Positions 22,496 to 64,000 of a stretch of DNA of 64,000 nucleotides are shown here, piece after piece (within the stretch, counting starts at the first letter, position 1; each line of letters opens with the position of its first letter). The stretch comes from Bacillota bacterium (GTDB lineage Bacteria; Bacillota; Negativicutes; CTSoil-072): contig JAGFZV010000015.1 of assembly GCA_017889545.1 (NCBI GenBank), positions 1-64,000 of the forward strand, read 5' to 3'. Both the position numbers and the translations under genes were made by a program. The notes under the pieces are model-generated. The model was not told where the DNA came from and ran no database searches. It worked only from the letters and a program-made list of their open reading frames with translations.

Positions 22496-23444
22496 GACGC
22501 GGACAGCTCATTACCGGAGTTCGCGGGTCGATTTCATAAAGAATTTTGGCCATCAGCCCATTTTTGTTGTCCGGATCAAGCCAGCCCCACTCGCCGGAAA
22601 AGTTTGCCTCAAGGAATGTATAGTGAGAATCTTTCTTCAGAAAATCCAGCCGCGCATAATGCACCCCTACCTCAGCGGCGAAAGAAAAAATCGCCTTTTC
22701 CATTTCTGCTGGCAACTTTACAGGCTTCCAGCCCCGGTGGGCATGCGCAGAGGGAGCTTTGCGCCAATCAATCGTTTCATTAATGAATGCTTGGCGATCA
22801 AGTGAAAAAGCAAAGAGCTCATCCCTTACCAGAGCTACAGTGACATCTTCATCAGCGTCAATATAATCAGTAAGGAACCACGGATGGGAAGGATCCAAAC
22901 TGCCCTCATCCACTTTGCGCGCGTAAAAGCCAATCCCGTCTGCGTACTTGAAGGTAAAACTTTTGGCAACGGACTGAATTCCAGGTCGAAAAAACCTCTC
23001 ACTCCCTACCGCGAAGCGGAAAGGGGTAACGTCGAAAAATTTAGCAGCGAGTCTCATCTGCTGCATCTTGCACGAACGAGTGGTTGCAAAAGGCTGACTG
23101 AGCACGACTTTGCCCTGTTCCCAATAAATATTCAAAATATCATTCAACGCCATCCAGACCTCTTCTTCAGCGTATCGGTCGGCATTATCCAACTGCATAG
23201 AAGGAAAGATATTGGAAGCGCGCATGGAGGAACGCCGGAATACCTTGACGAGGTCGTTCTCAGTTACACGCCTGCCGATGGGATCTTCGATCTCGATCGT
23301 CTGATCTGAAACCAAAAGTTTGTAATCCTTCCACAAATCCGTATTATAACGGAAGATATTCTCCGACCCCAAATTTTTAACCAGCAAATCAGCAACATAG
23401 TCGATTGAATTCGTTAACAATAGTGTAACGCCTTGCTTACTCAA
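22482..23444 (-). CDS. ATP-grasp ligase, graspetide-maturase-like
   Basis: About 320 residues. The N-terminus (GVTLLLTNSIDYVADLLVKN, then YNTD) resembles peptide-modifying ATP-grasp ligases of the MvdC/MvdD/PsnB kind. The C-terminal half has the ATP-grasp metal site: YARLDF, then FLEANFSGEWGWLD (Asp, Glu and Asn ligands). Such enzymes make ester or amide links between acidic and Ser/Thr/Lys side chains of a precursor peptide. TTG at 23444, 9 nt after GGGGAGG, is the best start, because longer frames begin inside the upstream terminator. A short acidic peptide gene precedes it. A YheC/D-like coat protein is the main alternative. Confidence 0.75.
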   Translation of the reverse strand: MSKQGVTLLLTNSIDYVADLLVKNLGSENIFRYNTDLWKDYKLLVSDQTIEIEDPIGRRVTENDLVKVFRRSSMRASNIFPSMQLDNADRYAEEEVWMALNDILNIYWEQGKVVLSQPFATTRSCKMQQMRLAAKFFDVTPFRFAVGSERFFRPGIQSVAKSFTFKYADGIGFYARKVDEGSLDPSHPWFLTDYIDADEDVTVALVRDELFAFSLDRQAFINETIDWRKAPSAHAHRGWKPVKLPAEMEKAIFSFAAEVGVHYARLDFLKKDSHYTFLEANFSGEWGWLDPDNKNGLMAKILYEIDPRTPVMSCPRPKWR

Positions 23445-23492
23445 TTTTAGAAGCCTCCCCTGTCTCTCTTTACAAACTTGACCAGTCGATAA

Positions 23493-23534
23493 AAAACCCA
23501 TCTTGTGGCATATTTATGCCTTAAGATGGGTTTT
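23493..23534 (-). terminator. Hairpin between peptide and ATP-grasp genes
   Basis: A 12-bp stem (AAAACCCATCTT and AAGATGGGTTTT) with an inner GGCAT/ATGCC hairpin is followed by TTTTTTA on the minus strand. Placed between a short peptide gene and its putative modifying enzyme, it would let peptide mRNA exceed enzyme mRNA. Confidence 0.8.
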
Positions 23535-23548
23535 GCAACCGTTATTGG

Positions 23549-23779
23549 CTATTCGTCTTTTTCACCATCAAATTGTGTGCTGCTAGTCGGTGCACCTGTG
23601 CTCATGAGCATATCATAGATTGTTTCACTCTCATCCCAATGCCGCACTTGGTTCACATAATCATACCGGCAGTTGCCCATCTCCTGTCGCCACAAACAAG
23701 CCTCATCCGGTTTTGAAGCGACTAGATCGGCCGGAGTGATTTTGGGTCCTGGAGATTGTGTAATGCTTTCAGTCAACAT
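23549..23779 (-). CDS. Short acidic peptide, candidate ATP-grasp substrate
   Basis: About 76 residues from ATG 23779; an ATG at 23815 (88 residues) is also possible, and both have weak ribosome sites. The start at 23872 is unlikely because it lies at or before the predicted transcript start. The C-terminus is Ser/Thr- and Asp/Glu-rich (MSTGAPTSSTQFDGEKDE), which suits ester-forming graspetide chemistry. The middle has two Cys (DEACLWRQEMGNCRYDY). No known leader motif was recognised. The case rests on position, a dedicated promoter and the attenuator-like hairpin before the ligase gene. Confidence 0.6.
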   Translation of the reverse strand: MLTESITQSPGPKITPADLVASKPDEACLWRQEMGNCRYDYVNQVRHWDESETIYDMLMSTGAPTSSTQFDGEKDE

Positions 23780-23862
23780 ACGCTCTCTGCCGCCCTTCTT
23801 AAAATTTTTGCGCATCAATAAATTGACTCTTATTTGAATATACTCTACCACTATTTTCGTTA

Positions 23863-23891
23863 AGATTAGCATACAAAAATTTCTATGTCAA
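23863..23891 (-). promoter_or_regulatory. Strong promoter of the peptide/ATP-grasp unit
   Basis: On the minus strand TTGACA (23891-23886), a 17-nt spacer and TAATCT (23868-23863) form a near-consensus promoter. Transcription would begin near 23856, so the peptide and ligase can be expressed apart from the radical SAM unit upstream. Confidence 0.7.
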
Positions 23892-23901
23892 GGTGATCAC
23901 T

Positions 23902-24045
23902 TCAGTTTTTGCAGAAAATTACAAACATTAACCCTGCAATTGCCAATACCAAACAAAGCGCTGTTATTCCCCACCGGATCATCCAATTCGGTTTTTTCGC
24001 CAAAATCTTGGCAAGTTCTGCTCTCGTTGCATCTTCACTCATCAT
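23902..24045 (-). CDS. 47-residue membrane stub resembling an HlyD-adaptor N-terminus
   Basis: A short gene starting with ATG at 24045, overlapping the stop of the C39 ABC exporter, with AGGGAG upstream. The product begins MMSEDATRAELAKILAKKPN, then WMIRWGITAL and one membrane helix, ending FCKN. It recalls the N-terminal anchor of HlyD-type adaptors that follow bacteriocin ABC genes (charged stretch, P-x-W, RWGI, helix). A normal adaptor has about 350 further residues, absent here: a promoter begins within 20 nt. It may be a decayed adaptor or a small accessory protein. Confidence 0.65.
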   Translation of the reverse strand: MMSEDATRAELAKILAKKPNWMIRWGITALCLVLAIAGLMFVIFCKN

Positions 24046-26231
24046 TCGCTCCCTAATTCCAATTGGTTTTTCACCAAATTGAAATACACGCCTTTTTTTG
24101 TGATTAATCCGGCGTGCGTTCCGGTTTCAACGACAACCCCTTCATCCAGGACAACAATTTGGTCAGCATTTCTCACCGTACTTAAGCGGTGAGCGACAAT
24201 AACAACGGTTCGATTCTTAAAAAACAAATCTAAATTTTTCATAATCATCGCTTCGTTGCATGCATCTAATGAATTGGTGGCTTCATCAAAAAACAAATAT
24301 TCCGGATTTTTATACACTGCTCTTGCAATCAGGATCCGTTGCTTTTGCCCTTGACTTAATCCCTGTCCGTCTGAACCAATCAGTGTTTGATAACCCAAGG
24401 GCAAAGAATTAATAAATTCAGCAATGTTGGCAACTTGGGCTGCCTGCTTCAACCGGTTCTCATCAATCATTTCATCTTTTAATGCAATGTTTCCGGCAAT
24501 CGTATCCGAAAAAATATACCCGTCCTGCATGACTAACCCGCATTTGTTTCGCCATGAACTGCGCAAAATGTCTGTCATAGGGATGTTGCCGATCCATAAA
24601 TCACCGCCAGTAGGCCGGTAAACTCCCAGCAAGAGCTTAAGAAGCGTTGTTTTCCCACTCCCGCTAGTGCCTACAATTGCTGTTATTTTTTTATTGGGCA
24701 ACACAATAGACACGTTTTTTATAACCTCTGGGGAATACGGACCGCCATATTGAAACGATACATTAGAAATAACAATGTCCGCTTCTTTCGGTATATCCGT
24801 CTTCTTTATTTCACCGGCATGTTCTTCCTCTTGCATAGCATGAATTTCTTCAATCCGTTCGAAACTAATCTTAGCATCCTGCGCACCAGCGACAAAATGC
24901 ACCAATTGTTCAATCGGGCCGTTTAGTTGCCCGAGAATAAACAAGATGGCAAGCATCATTCCCAAAGTAATATCGCCTTCAATAACAGAACGGGCTGCAA
25001 AATACGTAATCACAATATTTTGCGTTTCCTGTAATAAGAAACATCCTGCCTGTTGGTTTTGTGTCAGCGACAAGTATTTTTTGCTGATCGAGAACAAATC
25101 ATCCTGTATTTTTACCCAATCGGTGATTTTTTTCTTTTCACAGTTGTGGAGCCGAATTTCCTGCATTCCCATAATTAACTGGATAATCATGTTTTGATTT
25201 TTGCCAAGTTGTCTAAATTTGGCAAAATCGATTTCTCTTCGTTTGGCAAGAAACAATTGGATCCAGCACAAATACAAAATCGTCCCGGCGCAAAAAATCA
25301 AAAATATTGGAAAACTATAAGCAACAAGTACAATGCCAAAAATAATGAAGTTAATCAACGTGAGAAGAATACTCAAAACCGTATCGGTGATAAAAGTTTC
25401 TACCCGTCGATGATCATTGATGCGCTGCAAGGTATCACCAATCATTTTTACATCAAAAAAGCCCAGGGGGAGCTTCATTAATTTGAGTAAAAAATCATAG
25501 ACAAGAGTAATATTTACCGGCGTGCTGATGTAAAACAAGATCCAGCCTCTGATAAAGCTGACAAACGTCCGGCTGGCAATCAACAAAAACTGTCCGAGTA
25601 AGACCATTTGCAAAAGTCCGATATCTTTCCCATTGATCCCTTTGTCCACAATGATCTGGGTAAGAAATGGCAAAATCAGTTGAAGCAACCCGCCAAGCAG
25701 CATGGCCAATACAAGCTGAATAAATAATTGTTTGTATGACTTTAAATAGGAGAATAAAATAAAGAAACTTTTCGGAGAAGTTCCGTCTTCTTGTTGTGTA
25801 TCAAATTCATCGGCAGGCTCCAGCAAAAGAGCATACCCCTCATCGCCTGAAACTGCCCAATGCGATAAAAAGGTTTCTCTTTGATACCTTCTTTTGCCGC
25901 AAGCAGGATCAGCTAGATAAATCTGATCGTTTTTAATCTTATAAACAACGACAAAATGGCTATTGTCCCAATGAACGATACAAGGTAATTTCGCCCCGGC
26001 TTCCAGGTAGTTCATCGACACCAAGGCACACTTGGCCCGCATGCCGGCTGAAACAGCAGCATCACGCAAGCCAAGCAATGAGGCGCCTTCTCTTGAAACA
26101 TAACTTCTTTCACGAAAATATTGCAGCGAATACGATTTCCCATAGTGTTTTGTTATCATGCGCAAGCAGGCCGGACCGCAATCCATCGCATCGTGTTGTT
26201 TATAAATAGGGAAATCGCTTTTAAAAATCAT
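24042..26231 (-). CDS. C39-peptidase ABC exporter (leader-cleaving bacteriocin type)
   Basis: A 729-residue transporter. The N-terminal C39 Cys protease (about residues 1-135) has the catalytic Cys in HDAMDCGPACLRM, the His in HFVVVYKI and Asp in DPACG; it cuts leaders after Gly-Gly. Six membrane helices follow, then an ATPase with Walker A GTSGSGKTT, signature LSQGQKQRILIARAV and FFDEATNSLD. It overlaps the end of the radical SAM gene by 11 nt. It should cleave and export the peptide encoded at 27930-28103, whose leader ends IKGG. Confidence 0.93.
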   Translation of the reverse strand: MIFKSDFPIYKQHDAMDCGPACLRMITKHYGKSYSLQYFRERSYVSREGASLLGLRDAAVSAGMRAKCALVSMNYLEAGAKLPCIVHWDNSHFVVVYKIKNDQIYLADPACGKRRYQRETFLSHWAVSGDEGYALLLEPADEFDTQQEDGTSPKSFFILFSYLKSYKQLFIQLVLAMLLGGLLQLILPFLTQIIVDKGINGKDIGLLQMVLLGQFLLIASRTFVSFIRGWILFYISTPVNITLVYDFLLKLMKLPLGFFDVKMIGDTLQRINDHRRVETFITDTVLSILLTLINFIIFGIVLVAYSFPIFLIFCAGTILYLCWIQLFLAKRREIDFAKFRQLGKNQNMIIQLIMGMQEIRLHNCEKKKITDWVKIQDDLFSISKKYLSLTQNQQAGCFLLQETQNIVITYFAARSVIEGDITLGMMLAILFILGQLNGPIEQLVHFVAGAQDAKISFERIEEIHAMQEEEHAGEIKKTDIPKEADIVISNVSFQYGGPYSPEVIKNVSIVLPNKKITAIVGTSGSGKTTLLKLLLGVYRPTGGDLWIGNIPMTDILRSSWRNKCGLVMQDGYIFSDTIAGNIALKDEMIDENRLKQAAQVANIAEFINSLPLGYQTLIGSDGQGLSQGQKQRILIARAVYKNPEYLFFDEATNSLDACNEAMIMKNLDLFFKNRTVVIVAHRLSTVRNADQIVVLDEGVVVETGTHAGLITKKGVYFNLVKNQLELGSE

Positions 26232-27837
26232 TGATATCAATTATTCCAATATATTTTTCCGGATCATTCCGATGGGCAAAAATCTTCTTCAGCAGGTCCG
26301 GATGTTCTAAAGAAAAATGAATAAAACATAAGAAATCATAAGTTGTGCGTAAGCGGAATAAATCGCATTCCTGTTTTGCCGGATTGAAAAAATGATGATC
26401 CGCCATCCTACTGGCGGCACAAACGCTGCAAAAATTTACATTCCAGCAGTTCTTGCATTCATCATTATTAATGGATTGATTATATTGCTGATTCAAATCA
26501 ATTAACTTTTCATAATCCAAGCCTGAATCGCAGTCACCGATCGGCATCGAACCATCAACTTTATGACAAATCAAAAAATCGCCATTGGCGGCAAGCATCA
26601 AATTATCGAATCCCATAGGACAAGTAAGCAAAATCTGTAATGCATCCTTCCCTGCCGGATGATCGTAATTGAGTTTGGCAAACGAAAATAGATTGGCAAA
26701 ATCTTCTATTTTGATGCTCTGATCCTGAGCTGCTTCGAAAGCCTTTTTTTTGAAATTCGCCAGCCTTTTGTTCATCGAATTACGATAATCATAAACTGTT
26801 TCTTGTGAATTAGCGACAAACGTCCCTGTGTATTCCGCAGGAAAATGCTGACACAGGAGAGCGCCGATATTGCGGGTAAAATCCGTACATTTGTCATAAT
26901 CATGTTGATTTGTGTATACACCAAAAATAGAAACCTGTTCTTTGAAATACGTTTCATTGAACTCTTTGATTTTTAACAAATTATGATATGCAGTGTGAAA
27001 GGTGCCTTCGCCATTTGCAAAAACCCTGCATTTATCATGTTCTTCTGCCGGTCCGTCCAGGCTGGCAAATAAAAATACCCGGTTATCTACCAAAAAATTC
27101 AGTATCTCATCGTTCATGATCGACAAATTTGTGTTGGAAGTAAACTTCAGATTACTTTCGTTTATGGAATATCGATCCCAAGGCAGGTTTTTAAAATAGT
27201 TTGTACTTTTTTTGATCAGCTCAAAATTCAAAAATGGTTCGCCGCCATACCACGAAAGGCTTGGAGGAACGATTTTCAACAATAACTTCTTTTTTTCTGC
27301 GGATAATTTTTCAAAAAACGCAATATATTTATTGAAATAATAATGAATTCCTTTATATGCATTTTCTTCGCTTAATTTGTGCTTCGCGTGGCTATTTGCA
27401 ATGGTCCTTTTGCAATATGTACACCTGTAATTGCAATCTTCGGTAACTTCCATGCAAAATTTTCGCAATAAAATATTTTCATCATAGTACATTAACTGGT
27501 TCTTTATTACGTTTCTGTCTATAGGTGATATCTCCTTAACCGGTCCCTTAATAAACACCCCTGAAGATTTTAACGCTTCGAATTTGTCTAGCAAGAGCGT
27601 AATGGTCTTTTCAGCAAACGAAACAGCATGTATTTCTAAAATTTCCTCTTTGGGTTTTCCGCTTAAAAAATCAACGAGCACTTCCATCTCTTCATTCGAT
27701 AAAATAAAAACAAAATGCGGTTTTGCATCATAAACAAGAAGCTCATTTCCGTATGGAAATAGCTTAATCAACGGGTATTCTTTCTCGAAGAAAGCGACAA
27801 CATTCTTTTTTATCCTATGACCATTCGCAGAATCCAT
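26221..27837 (-). CDS. Radical SAM/SPASM peptide maturase
   Basis: A 538-residue enzyme. An N-terminal region of about 125 residues may bind the leader. The radical SAM cluster motif is CNYRCTYC (about residue 135), followed by SWYGGEPFLNFEL. The C-terminal SPASM domain has Cys at CPMGFDNLML, CHKVD, CKNCWNVNFCSVCAAS and a late Cys in KQECDLF, enough for two auxiliary 4Fe-4S clusters. Enzymes of this architecture form thioether (sactionine/ranthionine) or C-C links in Cys-rich peptides. It resembles maturases of Cys-rich Clostridial peptides, but the subfamily is not verified. Confidence 0.92.
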   Translation of the reverse strand: MDSANGHRIKKNVVAFFEKEYPLIKLFPYGNELLVYDAKPHFVFILSNEEMEVLVDFLSGKPKEEILEIHAVSFAEKTITLLLDKFEALKSSGVFIKGPVKEISPIDRNVIKNQLMYYDENILLRKFCMEVTEDCNYRCTYCKRTIANSHAKHKLSEENAYKGIHYYFNKYIAFFEKLSAEKKKLLLKIVPPSLSWYGGEPFLNFELIKKSTNYFKNLPWDRYSINESNLKFTSNTNLSIMNDEILNFLVDNRVFLFASLDGPAEEHDKCRVFANGEGTFHTAYHNLLKIKEFNETYFKEQVSIFGVYTNQHDYDKCTDFTRNIGALLCQHFPAEYTGTFVANSQETVYDYRNSMNKRLANFKKKAFEAAQDQSIKIEDFANLFSFAKLNYDHPAGKDALQILLTCPMGFDNLMLAANGDFLICHKVDGSMPIGDCDSGLDYEKLIDLNQQYNQSINNDECKNCWNVNFCSVCAASRMADHHFFNPAKQECDLFRLRTTYDFLCFIHFSLEHPDLLKKIFAHRNDPEKYIGIIDINDF

Positions 27838-53277: not shown

Positions 53278-53640
53278 CTAATTATTTATCCACACAACTT
53301 TCACATCATAAATGCTGCCGTCTTTTTCATATTTACCATTCAGTCGGCCTTCTTGAATGGCTTCTTCAATGACCTGTTTTACGCTCTCTCCCCAAGTATT
53401 CAGGGTTTCTCTTCGATAATGACTGGATGAAGCAAGCGCTGGAATTCGCGCTATAAGTTCGTGCCAATTACCGTTGTCAAAATGGTGTTTATATTTGTAA
53501 TATGCGTTAGGCCCTTGCAATTCAAAAGGAAATATATCGATTTGCTTCTTTTTACGGCAAAACGAAAAAACATTATTCTCATATTTCCCTGAAGTAATCT
53601 CGTCAACTTCTATAATCCGATTTGTATGTGCTTTATCCAT
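53278..53640 (-). CDS. Hypothetical protein
   Basis: A 120-residue protein with AAGGAAGG upstream of the ATG. It is mixed in character, with a Lys-rich patch (FCRKKKQIDIFPF) and a C-terminal TWGESVKQVIEEAIQEG helix. No family recognised. It lies among tRNA-like and gene fragments between the Fic gene and the large operon. Confidence 0.6.
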   Translation of the reverse strand: MDKAHTNRIIEVDEITSGKYENNVFSFCRKKKQIDIFPFELQGPNAYYKYKHHFDNGNWHELIARIPALASSSHYRRETLNTWGESVKQVIEEAIQEGRLNGKYEKDGSIYDVKVVWINN

Positions 53641-53722
53641 ACTAACCTTCCTTTATGTTGCAATTAATTTTCCCAGCCACACTATGCCGTGCGAAAGAGC
53701 TGCTGCCCATATCTCTTCAATG

Positions 53723-53851
53723 TCACTCTTCAAAAGCTTTCTTAACTTCGTTCAAACTCATTTTATTCGCTCCAACCGTTATGTCCGGTTTTTCTTTTGG
53801 CCAATGATCGCTTTCCTTAATACTTAAAAATCCATCTTCTGCTTTGTTCAC
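53723..53851 (-). pseudogene. Remnant of a small protein gene
   Basis: An open frame gives a soluble-looking stretch ending TVGANKMSLNEVKKAFEE, 42 residues from a GTG at 53851, and continues upstream without a good start (IIYIQDTVEDL). No ribosome site is seen. It is probably the 3' part of a decayed gene. The remainder of 53641-53947 shows nothing else. Confidence 0.35.
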
Positions 53852-53947
53852 AAGATCTTCTACAGTATCCTGAATATAAATAATGGCAGTTCTATTATAA
53901 TCATTTCTATTAATTTAATCATATCAATTCAATAACTATCTATCAAA

Positions 53948-54247
53948 TCAAAACTGAAATTCCATCGTCAATTCATAAGAATATTGTTCATCAAGTATGC
54001 GAGAATAATCCGCCTGAAGATTAACAAATGCGGGAACCTTAAGACGTCCGGCAACATTCATATTGCTTTTTGCATCATTCGAAAGATTAATGATTAATGT
54101 GTCCACCCCATCATAAGCACCGCAAAATTGTTTTGCTCTGCATTCCGCTGCTAACACATAGGTATAAGCAGCAAAATAAAATCTTTTCCTAGATGTAATT
54201 TTTAAGACTTGCCTTCTCTTCAAACTTGCTCTGCAAGAATTCATCAT
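53948..54247 (-). CDS. Small hypothetical protein, last gene of the island operon
   Basis: A 99-residue protein whose ATG overlaps the TAA of the TPR-cold-shock gene (TAATG), so translation is coupled. The N-terminus is basic and Cys-containing (NSCRASLKRRQVLKITSRKR); the rest is mixed (TLIINLSNDAKSNMNVAGRL). No family recognised. Confidence 0.6.
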   Translation of the reverse strand: MMNSCRASLKRRQVLKITSRKRFYFAAYTYVLAAECRAKQFCGAYDGVDTLIINLSNDAKSNMNVAGRLKVPAFVNLQADYSRILDEQYSYELTMEFQF

Positions 54248-55563
54248 TACAGAACTTTAATATGCACTGCATTCATTACAGGTATATTTTTCTTTCTGTC
54301 AAATCCTGGTTCAAGATAAAAACTGACCTTTACCCCTTCTTTTATCTTGTTTCGATCGCTCACTATCGAACTTACGTTAAAATAGAAGCTTTCGCCATTA
54401 TCTTGGCAAATAAAACCCTTTCTCCCTTCCGCAATCAATTTGATAACTTTTCCATATTTACAATTTTCCTTGGGATAAATATAATCCGACCATAACGGCT
54501 TAAGTTCTCGTATCATAGATGCCAAAGAAGAAGCTTCGTCAAGAGAATCACCTGCTGTTTCTATAAGACTAATCAACTCCGGTTTGATCACTCGACCACT
54601 ATCGCGATAAATTATGCAAACTAATTTAGCATGCCGAATAGCGGCTTCCTTTTCTTCTATTTTAAGCAAAATTTTTATCATCAATTCATACATATGAATT
54701 TTTTTGTCTGGTTCACCAAAAGCCAATGCACCCGAAGCACAATACAAAAGTGACTGTTCAAATTGTTGCTGTTGAAACAAAATTTCAGCAATTTCTTTAT
54801 AAATAAACCAGTCTTTTTTTATTAATAACAATTGATTGAGTATTTCTATTGCTTCGTCAAATCGATTCAATCCATGGAGAGTTTTTGCCCGATACCAACG
54901 CAGCCAAAAATCCCTATCATTATGAAAATCTGTAATTACAGAAAAAGCTTCACTAATTTGATTGCAGCATGATTGATACTGTTCCAATTCATAAAGACAT
55001 TTGACAATCATACTATAATATCTTTCCAATTCAGATCCTACTGTTTTTGACGTTCCATCCTCAGCCTTCCAAAAATATGCTTCTTTATTTAAAAGATCAA
55101 TATTTAGCCGATCAGCCCACTCTAATGCTTGCTTAAAATTTCCGCTCGGTTGAGTGATTAATAATTTCATTATCTGTAAAACAGCCTTGCTGTAAGGCGA
55201 ATATTTTCCTTGTTCACATATATTAATTATTTTGGTCGCGGCGCTTAAAATAGAATTTGAAACTTTTTCACTTGATTTTATATGGACATCATATAAACTC
55301 CACGCAAACTCGTTGCGAACATACTGATCCATATCTTTATTTTTTTCAAATGACTCAAAAAATGCGACAGCCTCAGATGCTTGTCCTGTTTTACGTAAAA
55401 CCTTTCCATAACTTCTTGCCTGGAACGAACTAAACATTTGTTCGATTTCTTTGTTTTCACTCAAATACTCATGGTATTTTTTCATTGCCTCTTCATACTT
55501 TTGCGTTTTCTCTAGTTCTACCGCTTCTTGCAATACTCTGGTTATATCTTGATCACCCATCAT
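54247..55563 (-). CDS. TPR-repeat protein with C-terminal cold-shock-like domain
   Basis: A 438-residue protein. Residues about 1-360 form helical TPR-like repeats (ELEKTQKYEEAMKKYHEYL, then LNRFDEAIEILNQLL). The last 70 residues look like a cold-shock/OB nucleic-acid domain: YGKVIKLIAEGRKGFICQ, then ESFYFNVSSI, matching the usual G-x-x-K-G-F-I and F-F-H-x-S-x-I pattern except that Asn replaces the typical His. It probably binds RNA or single-stranded DNA and a protein partner. It overlaps the upstream stop (TGATG). Confidence 0.78.
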   Translation of the reverse strand: MMGDQDITRVLQEAVELEKTQKYEEAMKKYHEYLSENKEIEQMFSSFQARSYGKVLRKTGQASEAVAFFESFEKNKDMDQYVRNEFAWSLYDVHIKSSEKVSNSILSAATKIINICEQGKYSPYSKAVLQIMKLLITQPSGNFKQALEWADRLNIDLLNKEAYFWKAEDGTSKTVGSELERYYSMIVKCLYELEQYQSCCNQISEAFSVITDFHNDRDFWLRWYRAKTLHGLNRFDEAIEILNQLLLIKKDWFIYKEIAEILFQQQQFEQSLLYCASGALAFGEPDKKIHMYELMIKILLKIEEKEAAIRHAKLVCIIYRDSGRVIKPELISLIETAGDSLDEASSLASMIRELKPLWSDYIYPKENCKYGKVIKLIAEGRKGFICQDNGESFYFNVSSIVSDRNKIKEGVKVSFYLEPGFDRKKNIPVMNAVHIKVL

Positions 55564-56978
55564 CAAGCCTCCTCAAAAATCTTCATCATATCTGACAAAA
55601 TATGCTCTGAAGTGCTCATTCCAAGTTGACCAATCCTTCTAGTTGGTCGGCCAAGTCCGTTAAAATATTGATCAACAACACCTGTATTATGTTTTGAGTC
55701 GCGAATTATATATCGTTGCATGTATGGAAACCTTCTAATTTCTTCAATAGTAAAATTCATTCGTTTTGCTCTCTCTTGAAATTCCGGATCAATTAATGGA
55801 GCATTTACTGGTGCTGATTCGTGAATACATTTACCAATTAAATTCTCCCTCAACCCATTAATATCCGAGAATATATTACCTTGATCCAACGTTTTCACAT
55901 TAGATACTAAACCATTTTTTTTATAAAAAACATCGATACGTTCAATATGATTATTACTGAAAACTGTGTATCGATTACAATATTGTAATGACTCTAACGA
56001 TCTTATTACTATTGGCCAATTCGTACTTTGCTGCCTCATGAATTTTGTCACCCAATCTTCTCGTTGACAAATGATAAACTTACTTTTGGTTTTATTTTTT
56101 TGCATCAAATGATCACTGCCATCGAAAATAGAGTTTAATATTGTGGGATATACAAAGTTTGGTCTATATTCAAAGCGTTCTTCTATGCTTTTCAATAATA
56201 CAGTCCCAAGCTCAGTTCCTTCGACAATAGATACACACTCACGCAACGCTTCATTTGTCTTTGAATAATCCAAGTCGCAAAGAAGAAACAATGCTCCAAA
56301 TCGCAAAGATTTAAAAATTTCGGCAAAAGAAAATGATGCTTTACTACCTCGTCGGTCACGCTCGCCGATGATATCCGAAATACAATTTTGCATAACTACT
56401 AAATCAGCTTCACCCAAAACTTGTTTACATACTTTCTCTTGACATATTTCACAAGAAAGAAAGTCACAATGATGTTCTGATAACATCATTTTTATGTTTC
56501 CGTATTTTTCCAATAATTTTACTGTGCAACCGTGACGATATTTTTTCCAAACGTTGTCATTAATATCAAAAACGCTCACCTTTAATTTTTCTACTCTTGG
56601 ATAACGCTTTTTGACATGGCTTGCAATACCTAATAATTCAGGCATTGGCCCGCCACCAAGTATGACTATGTTCATTATGTTGTCTTCCCGCAGAATCGGC
56701 AGTGACTTTAATTCTGCTAATTCTTCAAGCAAATGATAAAGAGTTTCAACATAATACGGAAAATAAGCTAACATATAAGCTTTAGCATTATCATTCTCAT
56801 AATCCGTTCGAGGTACGTTCTGGGAATAATCCTGTCGTAAAGATCTCACTAATTCTCGATCTTGCGTTAAATACTTTTGATAATCGTTGTCTGTCACATC
56901 AGGATACAGAAATGGAATAATAATGCGATAAGGATCGTGTATTGAAAAATCCGACAAATTGTCCAGCCCCCTTGCCAT
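55563..56978 (-). CDS. Rossmann/methyltransferase-like protein of unknown role
   Basis: A 471-residue protein. Around residues 100-150 is a Rossmann-like nucleotide site (NIVILGGGPMPELLGIASHV, then VSVFDINDNVW) like class I SAM-dependent methyltransferases. A Cys/His-rich stretch follows (HHCDFLSCEICQEKVCKQ, about 168-190) that could bind zinc, then VVMQNCISDI. The C-terminal 200 residues are unrecognised. It starts 1 nt after the DUF1848 stop. Substrate unknown. Confidence 0.6.
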   Translation of the reverse strand: MARGLDNLSDFSIHDPYRIIIPFLYPDVTDNDYQKYLTQDRELVRSLRQDYSQNVPRTDYENDNAKAYMLAYFPYYVETLYHLLEELAELKSLPILREDNIMNIVILGGGPMPELLGIASHVKKRYPRVEKLKVSVFDINDNVWKKYRHGCTVKLLEKYGNIKMMLSEHHCDFLSCEICQEKVCKQVLGEADLVVMQNCISDIIGERDRRGSKASFSFAEIFKSLRFGALFLLCDLDYSKTNEALRECVSIVEGTELGTVLLKSIEERFEYRPNFVYPTILNSIFDGSDHLMQKNKTKSKFIICQREDWVTKFMRQQSTNWPIVIRSLESLQYCNRYTVFSNNHIERIDVFYKKNGLVSNVKTLDQGNIFSDINGLRENLIGKCIHESAPVNAPLIDPEFQERAKRMNFTIEEIRRFPYMQRYIIRDSKHNTGVVDQYFNGLGRPTRRIGQLGMSTSEHILSDMMKIFEEA

Positions 56979-56979
56979 A

Positions 56980-57939
56980 TTAGAAAAGTGTTCCTTGGTT
57001 TATTTGTTTCGAAAGTTTTTTCTTTTTTTTCGTTTCAGTTGACGGGACTGCATCGAAATATCCTAACAATGACGGTGATTCGGGATTATGCAGTTGCATA
57101 TTTTTAATTCCGCATGGCAAAGTACCTGCATAGCAGTATGCACAGCCATGCTGACAGGTATCATAATGTCCAATATCCTTACTTTTGATACAACCACACT
57201 CAATTCGTTGCGTATTATCCTTTTTTTCATTAATGACTATACCGAAATGCTTCTGAATATAGTCATCATCAATACATTTTCCATGTTGCACACCACAGTC
57301 CATCAAATCAAACGGTTCAGCACAACTGAAAATTTCCATACTATTTTCCCGTGCTATTTCTGCTATATTTTTGATCAAAAAACCAATTGCCGCAGCATCA
57401 ACAATATTTTCAACGTATATTCCTTGTTCTTTTAACCTTTTAAAATGTGCACTTGCTTTTCGATAATCGTCAACGAGACTGATAATATTTCGTTCGGTAT
57501 ACCCCTTAAGTGTTGCAGCAATTTCTGCATAACGTTTCAAATGATATGCTTCATCGGTTCTATTGCTGATGATTATTGGATCATATCGCCATACAACCAA
57601 ACCAGATGGCAACGCCTCTGACAATTTTTGAAAGGTTTCACATGAACGCTCCCAATTTGGCAGATTTGGTTCAAACCATCTGTCATAACCTGTAAGAGTA
57701 TACTGAAAATAGAATTTAAAGCCTCTATCATTCAATTCATTCAAATGCGGCATCAACGGCTTTGGGTTTTTTGTCCAAAATACAATAATATCTACATCTT
57801 CTGGCTTCAAGGATATATAGGAAACTTGTTTGCGGTTAAATGGATTAACTGCAGTACAATATCCGGCACGAATGCGATTCATGAACCATTCGCTAAAAAA
57901 TGCAGGTATATCTGTTCTACGGCTTGCACTAATAATCAA
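56980..57939 (-). CDS. DUF1848 radical-SAM-like protein
   Basis: A 319-residue DUF1848 protein: ISASRRTDIPAFFSEWF at the start, NPFNRKQVSYISL, IVFWTKNPKPL and RYDPI. Near the C-terminus CGCIKSKDIGHYDTCQHGCAY carries the Cys pattern thought to bind a 4Fe-4S cluster, a permuted radical SAM arrangement. The start is TTG at 57939, with GAGGTG 6 nt upstream. Its place in an operon with a large ATPase suggests a modification step in that system; the substrate is unknown. Confidence 0.85.
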   Translation of the reverse strand: MIISASRRTDIPAFFSEWFMNRIRAGYCTAVNPFNRKQVSYISLKPEDVDIIVFWTKNPKPLMPHLNELNDRGFKFYFQYTLTGYDRWFEPNLPNWERSCETFQKLSEALPSGLVVWRYDPIIISNRTDEAYHLKRYAEIAATLKGYTERNIISLVDDYRKASAHFKRLKEQGIYVENIVDAAAIGFLIKNIAEIARENSMEIFSCAEPFDLMDCGVQHGKCIDDDYIQKHFGIVINEKKDNTQRIECGCIKSKDIGHYDTCQHGCAYCYAGTLPCGIKNMQLHNPESPSLLGYFDAVPSTETKKKKKLSKQINQGTLF

Positions 57940-58025
57940 TATTCACACCTCGCTTTCAGCCACTATATTAACTAATTGCAAATATAATTCATACGCGATT
58001 TATTAATTTACCGCTTCAATATACG

Positions 58026-59324
58026 TTATAGTAGCAATCGTGCTTTGGCTTGATATTCCTTAATAAATTTAGCATATATAAAATAATCAATCGTTTGATA
58101 ATGCGCCAACTTATTGCGGATTGATCTCGCCTGCATGATTAAAGAAAGCAACGAATTTTGTTTCCGGAATGCGTGGACAGTCTTGAATATGTATTCCAAA
58201 TACCCCCATTCACAAGCTAAGGGACTTTCTTGCAATTCTGTCGTTTGTATGTTAGATGGAGTGCAATATCGTGTATGCCAATTATCACCATATTCAGAAG
58301 TCATTTTTTCACATATGTGAATCCGCAATGAGTCAATTACCGGCAGGAGTAATTTTGCTTGCTCGCGCCAAAATCTATGGCGAATTTCATTTTTCCATCC
58401 CAATACAGCAATTGCTGCCAAATGAATCTCTGCACCGTTTTCTGGCGTCCATGATACAATCCCTTTACTCCAAAGTTCCCGCAATTTAGGAGGAGGCATA
58501 AGTGGCGAAATCGAATCGGTCGCTATCGTTTTTATACTTCGACAAAACGTTTCATCTATGCCCCACTTTTTCAATATTTCTTCTTTCCATGACCTTTTAT
58601 GAGCATATTCAATCAAACGAGTTTCAATCGCCTCCATAGGCTCATACAGAGCTTCCAAAATAAAGCTTCCAAAATCGACATCATTACCAATAATACCCGG
58701 TACAATACTCTCAACCCATTGAGCTTGTAATTTTCCTTCAGTTGCACCATTTTCAATACATGCTCTGCATAAACATTGCGTCTCGAGTGTTGAAGGGATC
58801 CCCCACCACCAGCGCAATGAAAGTGATGGTCCTGGATTGGGAATGTTCTGAAAAAAACGCATCGCCGGAATAGCGGTAAAAAACAGCGTTGATCGAGCTC
58901 CCGCATCATGTGACGTTTTAATCTGCTGCACCCACTGATCAAGCATCTTTATCCAGTTTCGAGCAATGCCGTCTTCTAATGTCTCCAACCCTTCCAAAAT
59001 AATTACTTCAGGCAAGCCGTCACTATTCAGCAAATTGCCTATTGTTCGTTCTTTTCCTTGCTCCCATGTAATTTGCAATCTTTGTCCAAGAGCATCTGCT
59101 AAAGACAGTGATTCTTCAATTTCTGACACATCTACCTTTTCAACAATAAACTCCTTACGATACAACGCATTAAAAACATGAGAAGAAATATGCATGCGAT
59201 CTATTTCTTCTGTTAACAACAAAAAAACGTTACGACCGTCACAAATATCTTCAATAACGGAATCAATAATTTTATGTACCGATGCCGATCCGTAGAACAA
59301 AGAGAGAATACTTACTGTATTCAT
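58026..59324 (-). CDS. ATPase-like partner of the giant ATPase
   Basis: A 432-residue protein. The first 160 residues look like an NTPase fold (NVFLLLTEEIDRM, VIILEGLETLEDG as a Walker-B-like strand, then STLFFTAIP) but lack a Walker A loop, so ATP turnover is doubtful. A CLCRAC motif lies near 190; the C-terminal half is helical. Its ATG overlaps the stop of the giant ATPase gene (ATGA), which points to a stoichiometric complex. No family recognised. Confidence 0.55.
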   Translation of the reverse strand: MNTVSILSLFYGSASVHKIIDSVIEDICDGRNVFLLLTEEIDRMHISSHVFNALYRKEFIVEKVDVSEIEESLSLADALGQRLQITWEQGKERTIGNLLNSDGLPEVIILEGLETLEDGIARNWIKMLDQWVQQIKTSHDAGARSTLFFTAIPAMRFFQNIPNPGPSLSLRWWWGIPSTLETQCLCRACIENGATEGKLQAQWVESIVPGIIGNDVDFGSFILEALYEPMEAIETRLIEYAHKRSWKEEILKKWGIDETFCRSIKTIATDSISPLMPPPKLRELWSKGIVSWTPENGAEIHLAAIAVLGWKNEIRHRFWREQAKLLLPVIDSLRIHICEKMTSEYGDNWHTRYCTPSNIQTTELQESPLACEWGYLEYIFKTVHAFRKQNSLLSLIMQARSIRNKLAHYQTIDYFIYAKFIKEYQAKARLLL

Positions 59325-62300
59325 GGCACCCATAACCTGCCTAATATAGGATCAAGACAAATAGTTCCATCAAGATTATCTTCTACTATGTTCATGATCC
59401 GTAAATATTGCATCGCATTGTCTACTTCTACTGCTGTTAATGCCGGTTGTCCGAGAAATTCACTAAAGTCTTCCTCCGTTAACAAATCCGCAGGCACGAA
59501 ATGTTCCTCATTAAAAAATTTAATTAATCTTTCTATTCTCTGATCCTCGCACGCATGCATTTGACAAAACTTCAACTTATCTTCTGCATTGGCAAAAAGT
59601 TGCGTTGCCAATGGACGCAAATCATCCTGCTTCCTGCCTTGATTAAATAAATGCTCTAATAGAATTGTCCAACCGTTTGTAGCGTCCAATATTTTCTTAC
59701 ACACATCTTCCGAATGTAGTTTGTTTTGTTGATTGAGCCGCTCTTGTACGGCAAATTTACTCCACCGTCTGAGTGATACAATTGCTGAAACTCTATTCTC
59801 TAATCCTTCGCGGCGATATTTGGGTATTTGCAACCATTTCCATACAGCCAATGGTTGCAAAGTGAAAATAATCCTTGTTGACTGCCGTTTTCTACGATAT
59901 GCCTGTAAAAGATCACAAGCAGCCTCAACTAGTTTCGTTGGAGAATCTTCAATTCCATCCAATTCTTTGTAAATAATGACTCTCTCATACTGGTCATGTT
60001 TTTTCAAATAATCTTCAAGCCAGCGTGAAAATTTAGAAGCTGAAATAATTGTCTTGGGAACACTTTTAAATACGCCGAGTCTTTCTTTAAGCAATGTATC
60101 TGGCAGCATTCGTTTTACGGCATCTTCAACCATTGAGACTCCCAGCGCAGGTGACCCAAATATTAATTGAACACCAAAAGGATTTTGATTAATCAATCGT
60201 TCTTGCGCTTGGGTAAAAGGACTATACTGTTTCCCAACGCAATCAACAGGAGCATGAAGTCCATCGGCACTCAGGTAATCATTTTGCAACTTTAATGAAT
60301 CGAGTTCCAATAAGCGCAGTTCGATATCGTCCTTTTTGCCCATCATACGAACAACATTGGGACTTCTCAAACGATAATAGCCATCACTGTTTTTCAGCAA
60401 GACTCCCAGTCCGCACATCTCGTCCATAAGGCCTCGGAATTCATCAATCGGTACACTTTCAAAAGCAGACCGCCACCAGTACCGGACTAACCCCAAAACT
60501 TGAGCTGTTGAATACGTGTTGGCAAAATTGGCACCCGATTCAAATTGATCATGGATCATGCTCCAAGCAATAGCCTGGTACCTTTTGTCCAATGCTAATG
60601 TCCAATCAAACCGTTCCTTAAATCGTTCTCTTAACTCCGGCACCCTGTACACTGCTTCGACTTCTAAACGATCAATTACATAAGGTGGCTCATCTTTGCC
60701 CAACCGTGAGCTATTCATCCGTTTCAACAATTGCTGGCAAAATAATTGGATTAATCCCGGATGATAATTCGTATACGAAAGGATATTTAAAATAACAGAA
60801 GGATCCTTAAAGCAAAACCCTAAACTTTCAAAGGGTTTTTTGATCAATTGCTGTGCCGCATCTGGTTCTAATGGTCCAACACAAATCGGCGCTCCAAAAT
60901 GGGCTAAAGGCTGATTGCCATCGCTTTGGAAACGTTGAACACTATGCAACCCAGCAAAAACAACTTTGAAACGATGTCCCATTTCTTGCGTCAAAATACG
61001 TAATTGATCTACCACTTTGTAATTAGATCGACGATCAGCATCAAGAAAATTATCTGCCTCATCAAACAACAATAGAATTCTGGCATTGCGGGCGTTATCC
61101 ATTCTAGCACGAATCGTATTGATCAATTCTTCGATGTTGCTCGGACGCATATTCGTAGTTTCCAGCAATTCAAAACGCACAAAAGAATCCCATATTTTGA
61201 CCCAAAGCAACTCTGTGTCCAAGTTGGTTTTGGGGTCTCCAAGCAACTTTATATCCTCCACATAGGCATACTGCTCCATGCCGGGACTATGAAATTCACG
61301 TTGAACATGTCTAAGCAGCGCCGATTTTCCTAATTGGCGTCCACCATACAATAGGCAACTTCCTTCAGGCCGTTGTAAGCTTTTGGCCATTTCTCTACGC
61401 CCAAAAAACATCTCTGGCGGGACATCTCCAGCTTGAAAAGGAGTATACGGGTTTAACGTCGCAAAAGGCAGAGTACAACGGAAGAATTGAGACAATCGAT
61501 TTCTTTTATCCAATAGAAACGCTAACAAACTTTCGTCTAATACCGCAATTGCCAAGCTTCTTTCCCGACTCGCGTGGCGTAATTGACCACGAGCTCTAAT
61601 TTTGAGTCGTCCCAGATAAAAGACTATTACATTATGATTGTCAAGGCGCAGATCTCTCAACCATCCCGTAATAGTATCGGCACTCGGTCTTTCCCATAAA
61701 CAAATAACATCAACATATTCCTTTTGATAAGTACCGAATTGGGGAACAGGCGAATGGCCTCCTGCTGACATTTTGACTTGTGTGTGCAGCCAATGATCGC
61801 CTTTTTGAACGGTACTGACTATTTCCTTATCCTCTCCTGGCAAAACATTAAATCCCAAATAACTTACAATATCCCGGATCAACCGGTTCGTATTTCGACC
61901 TCCAACACCATCGCCCTTGAGAATTCGCCATGATTCTATGCCCCGCAACGCTCCATCCCTAAGGGGTTTTGGTATTTGAGAAAAATTCATGCCTAGCCAA
62001 CTGCGTTCTTGGCGAATTGCGCTGATTAATTTAGAAAAGCCACTAGTACTCAGTTCCTCAGTAATCAGACCTAATTGGTCAAGAAAATCTTTCAAGGTAA
62101 CGTCATCGGGTTCATGCAAAAAAGAGAAACTCGTTTCATCTATTTCTTTGCCCGTTTCAATCAATTCTGTTAATCGATCAAAACATTCCTGCACAGTCCT
62201 TGTATCTCGACGCTTTAAAGAGTTTTCTACAAAATCCACAATTCGCTTTTGTAAGTTAATTCCCATTTGCAAATTGTCAATTTGTAACTTTAAACTGATC

Positions 62301-64000
62301 CATTCCCCATTTAATTCGTTAATTCGTCGATTTCTGTCTGCTTCTAAACAATCCTTTACCTTTCGCAACTCAGACATAGCTTTCGCAAAATTAAGGTTGC
62401 TGGATTCCCGGTGCGCTTCCACAATCGCAAAATAGTCATTACGTTCTTCACTAATGATCCCATCAACCGTGGCTTGTTCAATATCTTGTTCAGTCGATGT
62501 AACTTCAGCCAATAAGAGCGCATTACATCCGGCTTTACGAGCTTCAACCTGTGTCACTATCTCAGCATCTTCCGGAATAAGTCGTAATAAGGAATCAATA
62601 AAACGAAAATCTTTGCTATCCATCCACCCAATTATAGCTTCTTGTACATTTCTGTTTGAGTTGGCTAAAATGATGGAAGCAATTTTCTTATTTTGCTCTA
62701 ACGATGCCTCTCCTTGATCATTCAGGTCTAATTCATATAAATAATATAGCCGCTGACGCAATTCGCTGAACAAATCCTCTGTTGTGTTGCTGGCATCCAC
62801 TGAAAAAAAAGCATCTGAGTTGACATTTTTCATTCCAAGCATCCTGCAGCATGAAGCAATAGACATTTGCAAGCACTCGGTTGCTTGTGTTAACCCTTGC
62901 TCCCCACCGTCAACAACTTCTTTCAATGAATTTAATATATCTGGCGCCTTTGCTTCAAAATCTTTTCGCAATTCACTGATCTGTTCAACCACCCAATCAC
63001 GGCCTGTTTCAAGCCTTTTTTGTTCTCTCTCCACCAAATCGCACCAGTGTTCAATTCGCATGATTGCTTCACGAATCGTCCTCAGCAACTGTTCTCTCGG
63101 TTTCCCCATTATAAGCGACCGCTTTTTAAAACTTTTCTTTGCATCAATTGCATCCACAATTGCATCCACATGATGGGCTTCTTTCCATAGCGAAATTTCT
63201 CGACGCACATCTGGAATAGATGACCTATCATCCATAATAGCTTTGTTTAATAATACCTGTAATTTGCCTTGATGACCAAGCAATTCACTCCACACGTCAC
63301 TACAACGTTTTATGGCCAATTTTTTTGAATGTGACTGTTCCAGCCAAGCCTGTATATCCTTCACAATATCTTTTATGACCATATCTTGTTCACCAATGCC
63401 AGCAGCGCCAAGAAAATCTTCTTCACGCAAACCTCGGACTCTTGAAGCAAAATTTTTAATGGTTTGGACCAAATCATGTGTAAACGGTAACAAGCTGGGT
63501 GTTTGAATCCACGCCAACATTCCAGACTCAGGCGCAATTAATGAGCAACGGATGGCAACTGCTAACATCAGGATTTCTTGATATTCATTTGCATCGGTTG
63601 TTGAAGTGCGGTGTGTAATGTCTAATAGATCATGAACTAATCCTTGGTTTTGTTGCGTTAAAATGCCAGATCCATATAGAGCGGCGACTACCAACGGGTC
63701 AACTGAACGATCGATATAATTTGTTTTCAAAGAAAGAGATAACCAATAGGCCACGGCAAAATCTTGCTTTTGTATTAATTGCCAAAACAGATCTTCCATT
63801 TTTTCTAAATTTAAGTTTTCTTCTTGCTTTGCAATTTCCTGTGTATTAATTGGGTTAGTCCCCGAAACTTCTGTTTCATCGAACGCGATTTTATTTTCTT
63901 CCTCTTGCATCTTTTTAGGGGTGAGCACAATTTCGCCTAACAATTCTTCTTCAAGCGGCTGATCTAAATCATTAGATTCGCTTTGGTCAATGATATTTTC
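59321..64000 (-). CDS. Giant STAND/AAA-like ATPase, 5' end outside the window
   Basis: At least 1,559 residues; the frame stays open to the window edge. Counting from the edge, the first 650 residues are helical. A region at about 710-820 (VSYLGFNVLPGEDKEI, then HTQVKMS) has a nuclease-like look. The ATPase follows, with Walker A GGRQLGKSA near 887 and Walker B LLLFDEADNFLD near 975, then a winged-helix-like part. At about 1,320-1,480 lies a second, degenerate NTPase unit (LIFGSPALGVSMV, RVIIYKELDG). The layout recalls signal-transducing ATPases of bacterial conflict systems. Exact family not recognised. Confidence 0.7.
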   Translation of the reverse strand, partial: ENIIDQSESNDLDQPLEEELLGEIVLTPKKMQEEENKIAFDETEVSGTNPINTQEIAKQEENLNLEKMEDLFWQLIQKQDFAVAYWLSLSLKTNYIDRSVDPLVVAALYGSGILTQQNQGLVHDLLDITHRTSTTDANEYQEILMLAVAIRCSLIAPESGMLAWIQTPSLLPFTHDLVQTIKNFASRVRGLREEDFLGAAGIGEQDMVIKDIVKDIQAWLEQSHSKKLAIKRCSDVWSELLGHQGKLQVLLNKAIMDDRSSIPDVRREISLWKEAHHVDAIVDAIDAKKSFKKRSLIMGKPREQLLRTIREAIMRIEHWCDLVEREQKRLETGRDWVVEQISELRKDFEAKAPDILNSLKEVVDGGEQGLTQATECLQMSIASCCRMLGMKNVNSDAFFSVDASNTTEDLFSELRQRLYYLYELDLNDQGEASLEQNKKIASIILANSNRNVQEAIIGWMDSKDFRFIDSLLRLIPEDAEIVTQVEARKAGCNALLLAEVTSTEQDIEQATVDGIISEERNDYFAIVEAHRESSNLNFAKAMSELRKVKDCLEADRNRRINELNGEWISLKLQIDNLQMGINLQKRIVDFVENSLKRRDTRTVQECFDRLTELIETGKEIDETSFSFLHEPDDVTLKDFLDQLGLITEELSTSGFSKLISAIRQERSWLGMNFSQIPKPLRDGALRGIESWRILKGDGVGGRNTNRLIRDIVSYLGFNVLPGEDKEIVSTVQKGDHWLHTQVKMSAGGHSPVPQFGTYQKEYVDVICLWERPSADTITGWLRDLRLDNHNVIVFYLGRLKIRARGQLRHASRERSLAIAVLDESLLAFLLDKRNRLSQFFRCTLPFATLNPYTPFQAGDVPPEMFFGRREMAKSLQRPEGSCLLYGGRQLGKSALLRHVQREFHSPGMEQYAYVEDIKLLGDPKTNLDTELLWVKIWDSFVRFELLETTNMRPSNIEELINTIRARMDNARNARILLLFDEADNFLDADRRSNYKVVDQLRILTQEMGHRFKVVFAGLHSVQRFQSDGNQPLAHFGAPICVGPLEPDAAQQLIKKPFESLGFCFKDPSVILNILSYTNYHPGLIQLFCQQLLKRMNSSRLGKDEPPYVIDRLEVEAVYRVPELRERFKERFDWTLALDKRYQAIAWSMIHDQFESGANFANTYSTAQVLGLVRYWWRSAFESVPIDEFRGLMDEMCGLGVLLKNSDGYYRLRSPNVVRMMGKKDDIELRLLELDSLKLQNDYLSADGLHAPVDCVGKQYSPFTQAQERLINQNPFGVQLIFGSPALGVSMVEDAVKRMLPDTLLKERLGVFKSVPKTIISASKFSRWLEDYLKKHDQYERVIIYKELDGIEDSPTKLVEAACDLLQAYRRKRQSTRIIFTLQPLAVWKWLQIPKYRREGLENRVSAIVSLRRWSKFAVQERLNQQNKLHSEDVCKKILDATNGWTILLEHLFNQGRKQDDLRPLATQLFANAEDKLKFCQMHACEDQRIERLIKFFNEEHFVPADLLTEEDFSEFLGQPALTAVEVDNAMQYLRIMNIVEDNLDGTICLDPILGRLWVP

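Follow-up and report, generated by a model that had tools for sequence, protein, structure and literature searches.

The window examined here is the first 64 kb (positions 1 to 64,000) of a 78,244-bp contig (JAGFZV010000015.1) from the incomplete genome of a member of the Bacillota (GCA_017889545.1). A cluster of six open reading frames (ORFs) at its end, from position 53948 onward, had been put forward in a preliminary description as a single operon of possible defense function; all six ORFs were confirmed on the minus strand, to which all feature coordinates below refer. Two of them, encoding a giant ATPase and the ATPase-like protein that follows it (the partner), form a conserved core unit for which Pfam, NCBIfam, and PADLOC (2023) offer no descriptive family. 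The pair was likewise not found described in the open literature searched. We lean toward the interpretation that this core is a sensor-ATPase/HEPN-RNase abortive unit, either free-standing or serving as a back-up to helicase-nuclease DNA restriction.

The giant ATPase and its partner are inherited together

The giant was found in 12 of the 398 genomes of the phylum, its own included. In all 10 copies that reach the C terminus (that of the window and nine relatives), the partner gene follows directly. A scan of the genome contig set that used the single window protein as query gave no matches; a profile scan of that set retrieved 510 loci encoding relatives of the giant. The best 80 of these 510 loci, some of which lie on contigs that the phylum set also contains, were analyzed and span Bacillota, Cyanobacteria, Chloroflexota, Myxococcota, Acidobacteriota, and other phyla. 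Twelve of the 80 end too soon to be informative, and the partner is present at 52 of the remaining 68, usually with a 4-nt overlap. In a mirror-tree comparison, distances among giants and among partners were correlated (r = 0.877 over 51 pairs; permutation maximum, 0.139). Because shared species history adds to this correlation, it demonstrates co-inheritance rather than contact.

The distribution of the giant is patchy and includes plasmid copies. Its occurrence on plasmids and in only 12/398 phylum genomes rules out a housekeeping gene, the case that would have contradicted the preliminary description. Phage records gave no match, and IMG/VR contained one clear locus with both genes (L147), on a contig classed as viral and of putative viral origin.

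Domain architecture of the giant

The end of the window truncates the giant, leaving the C-terminal 1,559 of 1,957 residues within it (59321 to 64000); on the contig, the intact ORF runs from 59321 to 65194 with no internal stop. The ATPase of >1,550 residues anticipated by the preliminary description was thus confirmed at a length of 1,957 residues, with an AAA domain that bears both Walker motifs and gives a Pfam match (AAA_22) above the cutoff. This first AAA+ module and its winged-helix region (residues ~1247 to 1640; 60275 to 61456) are of the Orc1/Cdc6/STAND type and are predicted to be active. The core residues of Walker A (GGRQLGKS, residues 1284 to 1291; 61322 to 61345) are at least 90% conserved in relatives, as are D1378, E1379, and D1381 of Walker B (LLLFDEAD, residues 1374 to 1381; 61052 to 61075). 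Residues 1070 to 1956 were modeled by AlphaFold (pLDDT 78, pTM 0.44), followed by structure comparison. AAA+ module 1 matched Orc1/Cdc6, TnsC, and MuB at Z scores of 12 to 14, and 2qen was also matched. As judged from sequence and model, the giant would therefore qualify as a STAND/Orc-Cdc6 ATPase, namely, an AAA+ fold with both Walker A and Walker B.

The C-terminal region (residues ~1650 to 1956; 59327 to 60247) is predicted to be a degenerate second NTPase module with an NB-ARC/STAND fold lacking Walker motifs. It matched CED-4, the plant NLR RPP1, and Sso1545 (Z scores of 12.8 to 14.0; root mean square deviation of 4.8 over ~270 residues). A restriction endonuclease (REase)-like region, assigned from the model, probably occupies residues ~1100 to 1220 (61535 to 61897) and is predicted to be inactive. 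The nuclease-like region of the preliminary description survives in part, as the model displays an alpha-beta-beta-beta-alpha-beta order with a PD-(D/E)xK-like strand order. However, no D..(E/D)xK set occurs among the columns conserved at 90% or more, and an active nuclease in the giant is accordingly unsupported.

No family match was obtained for the first ~1,000 residues in the stretches scanned, and a profile search of PDB sequences returned chance-level matches only. The giant is not covered by any model of Pfam (2025), NCBIfam (2026), or PADLOC (2023); in plasmid records, it is mostly annotated as "hypothetical" or "ATP-binding protein."

A predicted HEPN RNase domain in the partner

The partner (435 residues; 58026 to 59333) is predicted to consist of a Walker-less AAA+/STAND-like module and a C-terminal HEPN-like domain, as delineated from its model and fold matches. 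An AlphaFold model built with 36 relatives reached a pLDDT of 93. Residues 1 to 315 matched AAA+/STAND modules by Foldseek and VIA-align (Orc/Cdc6, 2qen, Avs5, and the plant NLRs NRC4 and WRR4A), and Walker A is absent despite this ATPase-like fold. The model and fold matches bear out the ATPase-like partner without Walker A of the preliminary description, which overlooked both the HEPN-like domain and a helicase/PLD block that lies upstream, beyond the end of the window.

The putative HEPN-like domain (residues 314 to 435; 58029 to 58394) is a helical bundle whose helices were modeled with high confidence. It gave a weak match to the Pfam family HEPN_Swt1 (PF18731; E = 0.005; 17.6 bits versus a cutoff of 27.5). 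The penultimate long helix ends with the motif R-N-K-L-A-H (RX4H; residues 406 to 411; 58101 to 58118). The R and H of this R-N-x-x-x-H pattern are kept in 35 of 36 aligned relatives at a mean alignment identity of 27%, the exception being a truncated ORF. HEPN domains are metal-independent RNases whose catalytic signature is an R followed by a polar residue, with an H at a spacing of 4 to 6 (PMC3710099). The partner sequence contains this signature, and we regard the HEPN assignment as strong on motif but not closed, with the partner a predicted RNase on the basis of sequence and model. Neither Foldseek nor VIA-align listed a HEPN structure for the C-terminal bundle, their lists being filled by the N-terminal domain, and no match above the cutoff was obtained for the partner in the same Pfam, NCBIfam, and PADLOC releases.

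Partner homologs on Azospirillum and Agrobacterium plasmids (L114:14565-16142 and L118:16382-17971) carry an extra C-terminal P-loop kinase-like region, within which Pfam reports AAA_33 in the Agrobacterium protein. By analogy with Las1-Grc3, in which a kinase and an RNase cooperate in RNA end processing, a kinase beside the predicted RNase would possibly fit such a function.

Neighbors of the pair in other genomes

Neighboring genes vary within the phylum set. They include an Fe-alcohol dehydrogenase, a penicillin-binding protein, an aldehyde ferredoxin oxidoreductase, and a multicopper oxidase, where the pair is apparently on its own, and elsewhere helicases, HerA, or a methyltransferase. 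SNF2- or YprA-type relatives of the helicases encoded upstream of the pair in this genome flank 21 of the 80 loci (~790 kb of flank in all); the cyanobacterial loci among these are interrelated, so that the count reflects fewer independent events. Neighbors of the giant recognized by PADLOC comprise DruE3 (L056), DruE1 with a DruK-like nuclease (L103), DpdE/DrmD-like with DrmMI (L091), BrxH/DrmD-like (L055), and HKD+Snf2 (L076 and L094). Several cyanobacterial giants that lack the HEPN partner (within L075-L086) overlap an HKD+Snf2 helicase by 3 to 4 nt, a possible effector swap. On an Azospirillum oryzae plasmid, the giant and a complete argonaute-like pPIWI_RE form a single fusion protein of 3,256 residues (L114:4702-14472); genes upstream of it encode pPIWI_RE_Y-REase, pPIWI_RE_Z, and a WYL-domain regulator. 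Further plasmid copies of the giant adjoin CRISPR, ThiF plus patatin, or PLD plus helicase genes.

Proposed mechanism and its main rival

We infer an anti-phage role for the pair. The N-terminal ~1,000 residues of the giant and its REase-like region would sense an invader signal, which might be an invader protein, abnormal DNA, or a restriction intermediate. Binding of ATP to the single intact AAA+ site would then bring this module together with the two degenerate STAND modules, one in each protein, and this assembly would switch on the HEPN RNase of the partner. Once activated, the RNase would cut cellular RNA, leading to abortive infection. Such a unit could work alone or back up neighboring helicase-nuclease restriction systems. 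HEPN back-up effectors have been proposed in Dnd, BREX, and DUF499 restriction loci (PMC10853773, PMC12839542), which renders a back-up role of the pair plausible.

Several points weigh against this interpretation. AAA+ module 1 is similar to DNA-loading ATPases (Orc1, TnsC, and MuB) as well, and the inter-domain arrangement in the model of the giant is uncertain, as reflected by the pTM of 0.44. The HEPN assignment draws on the motif, the helical bundle, and a sub-threshold Pfam match, and the HEPN fold is a prediction, as the fold search dealt mainly with the N-terminal part. In addition, 16 of the 68 informative loci, many of them cyanobacterial and several beside an SNF2 helicase, encode the giant without the partner; thus, the RNase is not universal.

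The main rival, which we consider unlikely, holds that the giant is a DNA-loading or -translocating scaffold like BrxC, SspC, or TnsC. The partner would then be an inactive BrxB-like STAND adaptor that recruits SNF2, YprA, PLD, or pPIWI_RE proteins to invader DNA, with a secondary role for the HEPN-like bundle. The presence of Orc1/Cdc6, TnsC, and MuB among the best matches to AAA+ module 1, the HKD-SNF2 genes that overlap the giant in partnerless cyanobacteria, and the fusion to pPIWI_RE are all consistent with a scaffold, and BREX pairs BrxC (Orc/Cdc6) with BrxB (inactive STAND) (PMC12839542). However, 59 of the 80 loci have no such helicase in their flanks, the near-invariant RX4H is difficult to reconcile with a simple adaptor role, and the C-terminal module of the giant matches NLR/CED-4 rather than loaders.

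The six-gene cluster is a mosaic within a defense island

The cluster in the window combines at least two modules, with a third beside them, and is not one conserved system. As the preliminary description had it, most junctions are tight, with four of the five overlapping or separated by 1 nt. The giant and partner genes overlap by 13 nt, the DUF1848 and methyltransferase genes lie 1 nt apart, and the gene for a fusion of TPR and cold-shock domain (TPR-CSD) overlaps the methyltransferase gene by 4 nt and a small ORF by 1 nt. The sole loose junction is a gap of 86 nt between the partner and DUF1848 genes. At this gap, GC content steps from 0.40 in the giant and partner to 0.34 to 0.36 in the DUF1848/methyltransferase/TPR-CSD half; the upstream helicase and PLD genes have 0.43, and positions 1 to 53000 of the window have 0.44. 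In a promoter and terminator scan of positions 53600 to 59500, promoter-like sites were no more numerous than in shuffled sequences. Same-strand genes run on upstream, past the end of the window.

The DUF1848 protein (56980 to 57939; PF08902, E = 6e-100) was correctly named in the preliminary description; it has a Cys-rich C terminus (CxxxCxxCY) and looks radical-SAM-like by inspection. A second DUF1848 gene occurs in the same genome (L001; G000:C4:1910-2719), beside a gene for a 295-residue protein without an assigned family. For the next protein (55563 to 56978), the earlier label of methyltransferase-like fits the N-terminal Rossmann domain, in which GxGPxPE and D motifs are conserved in an alignment of relatives, and needs to be extended by a C-terminal TBP-TOTE domain (PF22721, E = 2e-14, above the cutoff). 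The TPR-cold-shock (OB) fusion (54247 to 55566) was recovered as described, is of the TOTE/TALON type (PADLOC PDLC01170, E = 1e-73), and also gave CSD and TPR matches. The last gene, a putative ORF of 99 residues (53948 to 54247) that overlaps the TPR-CSD stop, had no family match, and no relative of it was detected. On sequence grounds, the simplest reading is that the DUF1848, methyltransferase-TBP, and TPR-CSD genes constitute a TOTE-like module of lower GC that was acquired separately, and mosaic acquisition of modules is the simplest reading of the island as a whole.

Co-occurrence elsewhere separates these genes from the pair. TPR-CSD was found in 8 of the 398 phylum genomes and together with the giant only in this genome and one other (G273), in which TPR-CSD, a YprA-type helicase, the giant, and the partner are co-located (L042). 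DUF1848 and the methyltransferase are paired in G224, in G318, and on a Planktothrix plasmid (L141); in the two genomes, the pairs adjoin conserved divergent genes, of WYL type in G224. The methyltransferase gene follows AlkB on pSYSA and on a Picosynechococcus plasmid, in the latter case inside a DUF1156-DUF499 cluster. The association of the methyltransferase-like protein with DUF1848 and/or AlkB (L131, L132, L140, L141, and L151) marks a candidate nucleic-acid modification module.

We consider it improbable that all six genes form one system in which modification enzymes mark self and the ATPase/RNase acts as effector. The single strand, the tight junctions save one, and the second co-location in G273 would fit this view. 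However, TPR-CSD lies beside the giant at only that one other locus, DUF1848 and the methyltransferase occur without the giant, and GC content drops at the partner/DUF1848 gap. The neighborhood comparison proposed in the preliminary description therefore upheld the giant and the partner as regular companions (10/10 and 52/68) but not the remaining genes, which are found in separate modules without the giant.

Upstream of the giant, on the contig beyond the end of the window, we identified a DrmC-like PLD nuclease (E = 5e-10) and an 861-residue DEAD helicase of the YprA type (DECH_helic, E = 3e-39; DruE/DpdJ-like in PADLOC). A DrmD-like SNF2 helicase gene (L003:8531-10726, contig positions 68531 to 70726) is broken, with an in-frame TAG and the N-terminal ~380 residues absent; the adjoining helicase and PLD ORFs are intact. 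Farther along lies a 1,599-residue sacsin-type ATPase/SF1 helicase (L003:11769-16568, contig positions 71769 to 76568), which is similar at its N terminus to TmtA (Tiamat) and at its C terminus to MkoA (Mokosh). The region is a defense island. In this genome, the pair sits between the damaged DISARM-like helicase block and the TOTE-like module, and the earlier view of a STAND-like giant in a defense setting, unmatched to named systems, is supported for the core pair. That the island is decaying and non-functional in this strain, as the broken DrmD-like gene might suggest, is very improbable, as the ORFs of the giant, the partner, and the TOTE-like genes are uninterrupted and preserve every key motif and the pair is often free-standing elsewhere.

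Elsewhere in the window (22482 to 27837), genes for a radical-SAM protein with a Cys-rich C terminus, a peptidase-type ABC transporter, and an ATP-grasp-like protein likely represent a peptide-natural-product cluster, judging by sequence only.

Comparison with known systems

The pair shares with DUF499-centered, BREX-related (Hma) systems with HEPN-ATPase the combination of an Orc/Cdc6-type ATPase and a Swt1-like HEPN RNase (a predicted one in the pair), a restriction setting with SNF2 helicase and methyltransferase, and a proposed back-up role of HEPN (PMC12839542, PMC3710099). In contrast to these systems, the pair places its HEPN-like domain on a second protein, the Walker-less STAND partner; the giant contains two NTPase modules and is longer at its N terminus by ~1,000 residues; and neither helicase nor methyltransferase is a constant companion. 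No DUF499 match to the giant was found in Pfam at E ≤ 1. The STAND modules, large size, and proposed sensor-to-nuclease activation recall Avs and other STAND NTPases, and Avs3, Avs4, and Avs5 were among the structure matches. The pair differs from Avs in having its effector on a second gene and three NTPase-like modules, of which one is predicted to be active, and none of the Avs models of PADLOC matched it in sequence.

TPR-CSD and TBP define the TOTE class, to which TALON adds a YprA helicase and a NERD nuclease (PMC12458937). The window contains both the TPR-cold-shock fusion and TBP-TOTE, with a YprA-like helicase nearby. Here, however, PLD replaces the NERD nuclease, TBP is fused to a methyltransferase-like domain, and DUF1848, the giant, and the partner are added. 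The candidate effectors, helicase and PLD, are encoded upstream, and the pair intervenes between them and the TPR-CSD and TBP genes. No NERD match was found in any gene scanned. TALON helicases end in an inactive RNase H domain; the 861-residue YprA-like helicase had no RNase H match in Pfam, and such an inactivated fold is visible only by structure.

The DrmD-like SNF2 remnant, PLD, and YprA-like helicase upstream, as well as DruE or DrmD-like neighbors of the giant elsewhere, resemble DISARM, Druantia, and ARMADA, although the giant and the partner are not listed components of these systems. DISARM comprises drmA, drmB, drmC, and a methyltransferase; only the DrmC-like PLD and the DrmD-like remnant were found here, with no DrmB (MZB) or DrmMI/DrmMII match. 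Orc/CDC6-iREase-HerA capture systems have an Orc/Cdc6 ATPase with an inactive REase (iREase), as is predicted for the giant, and one relative of the giant (G002) adjoins a HerA ATPase. In those systems, the iREase lies between the AAA core and the wHTH (PMC10853773), whereas the giant has its REase-like region ahead of the AAA core and a HEPN-like partner. PbeABCD was ruled out, as the match is chance-like and spans 25 residues of the 66-residue PbeB and neither PbeC (CxC ABC-ATPase) nor DndE-like PbeD was matched.

Implications

The component parts of the pair are of known kinds; its breadth and plug-in behavior make it notable. It is conceivable, if somewhat doubtful, that the pair represents a new class of modular immune units, present in many phyla, in which a multi-module machine of the STAND/Orc type carries a HEPN RNase that can be detached. 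Such a unit would plug into DNA-targeting systems unrelated to one another (Druantia, DISARM-like, HKD-SNF2, and pPIWI_RE) and, when DNA restriction fails, respond by cleaving RNA and shutting down the cell. If the sensor-ATPase/HEPN-RNase interpretation is correct, a very large and widespread protein family would become a testable immune machine. One such unit would then back up several restriction systems that are otherwise unrelated, a prokaryotic argonaute among them, and immune systems could draw on heteromeric STAND assemblies that have one active site, similar to ORC or pairs of plant NLRs.

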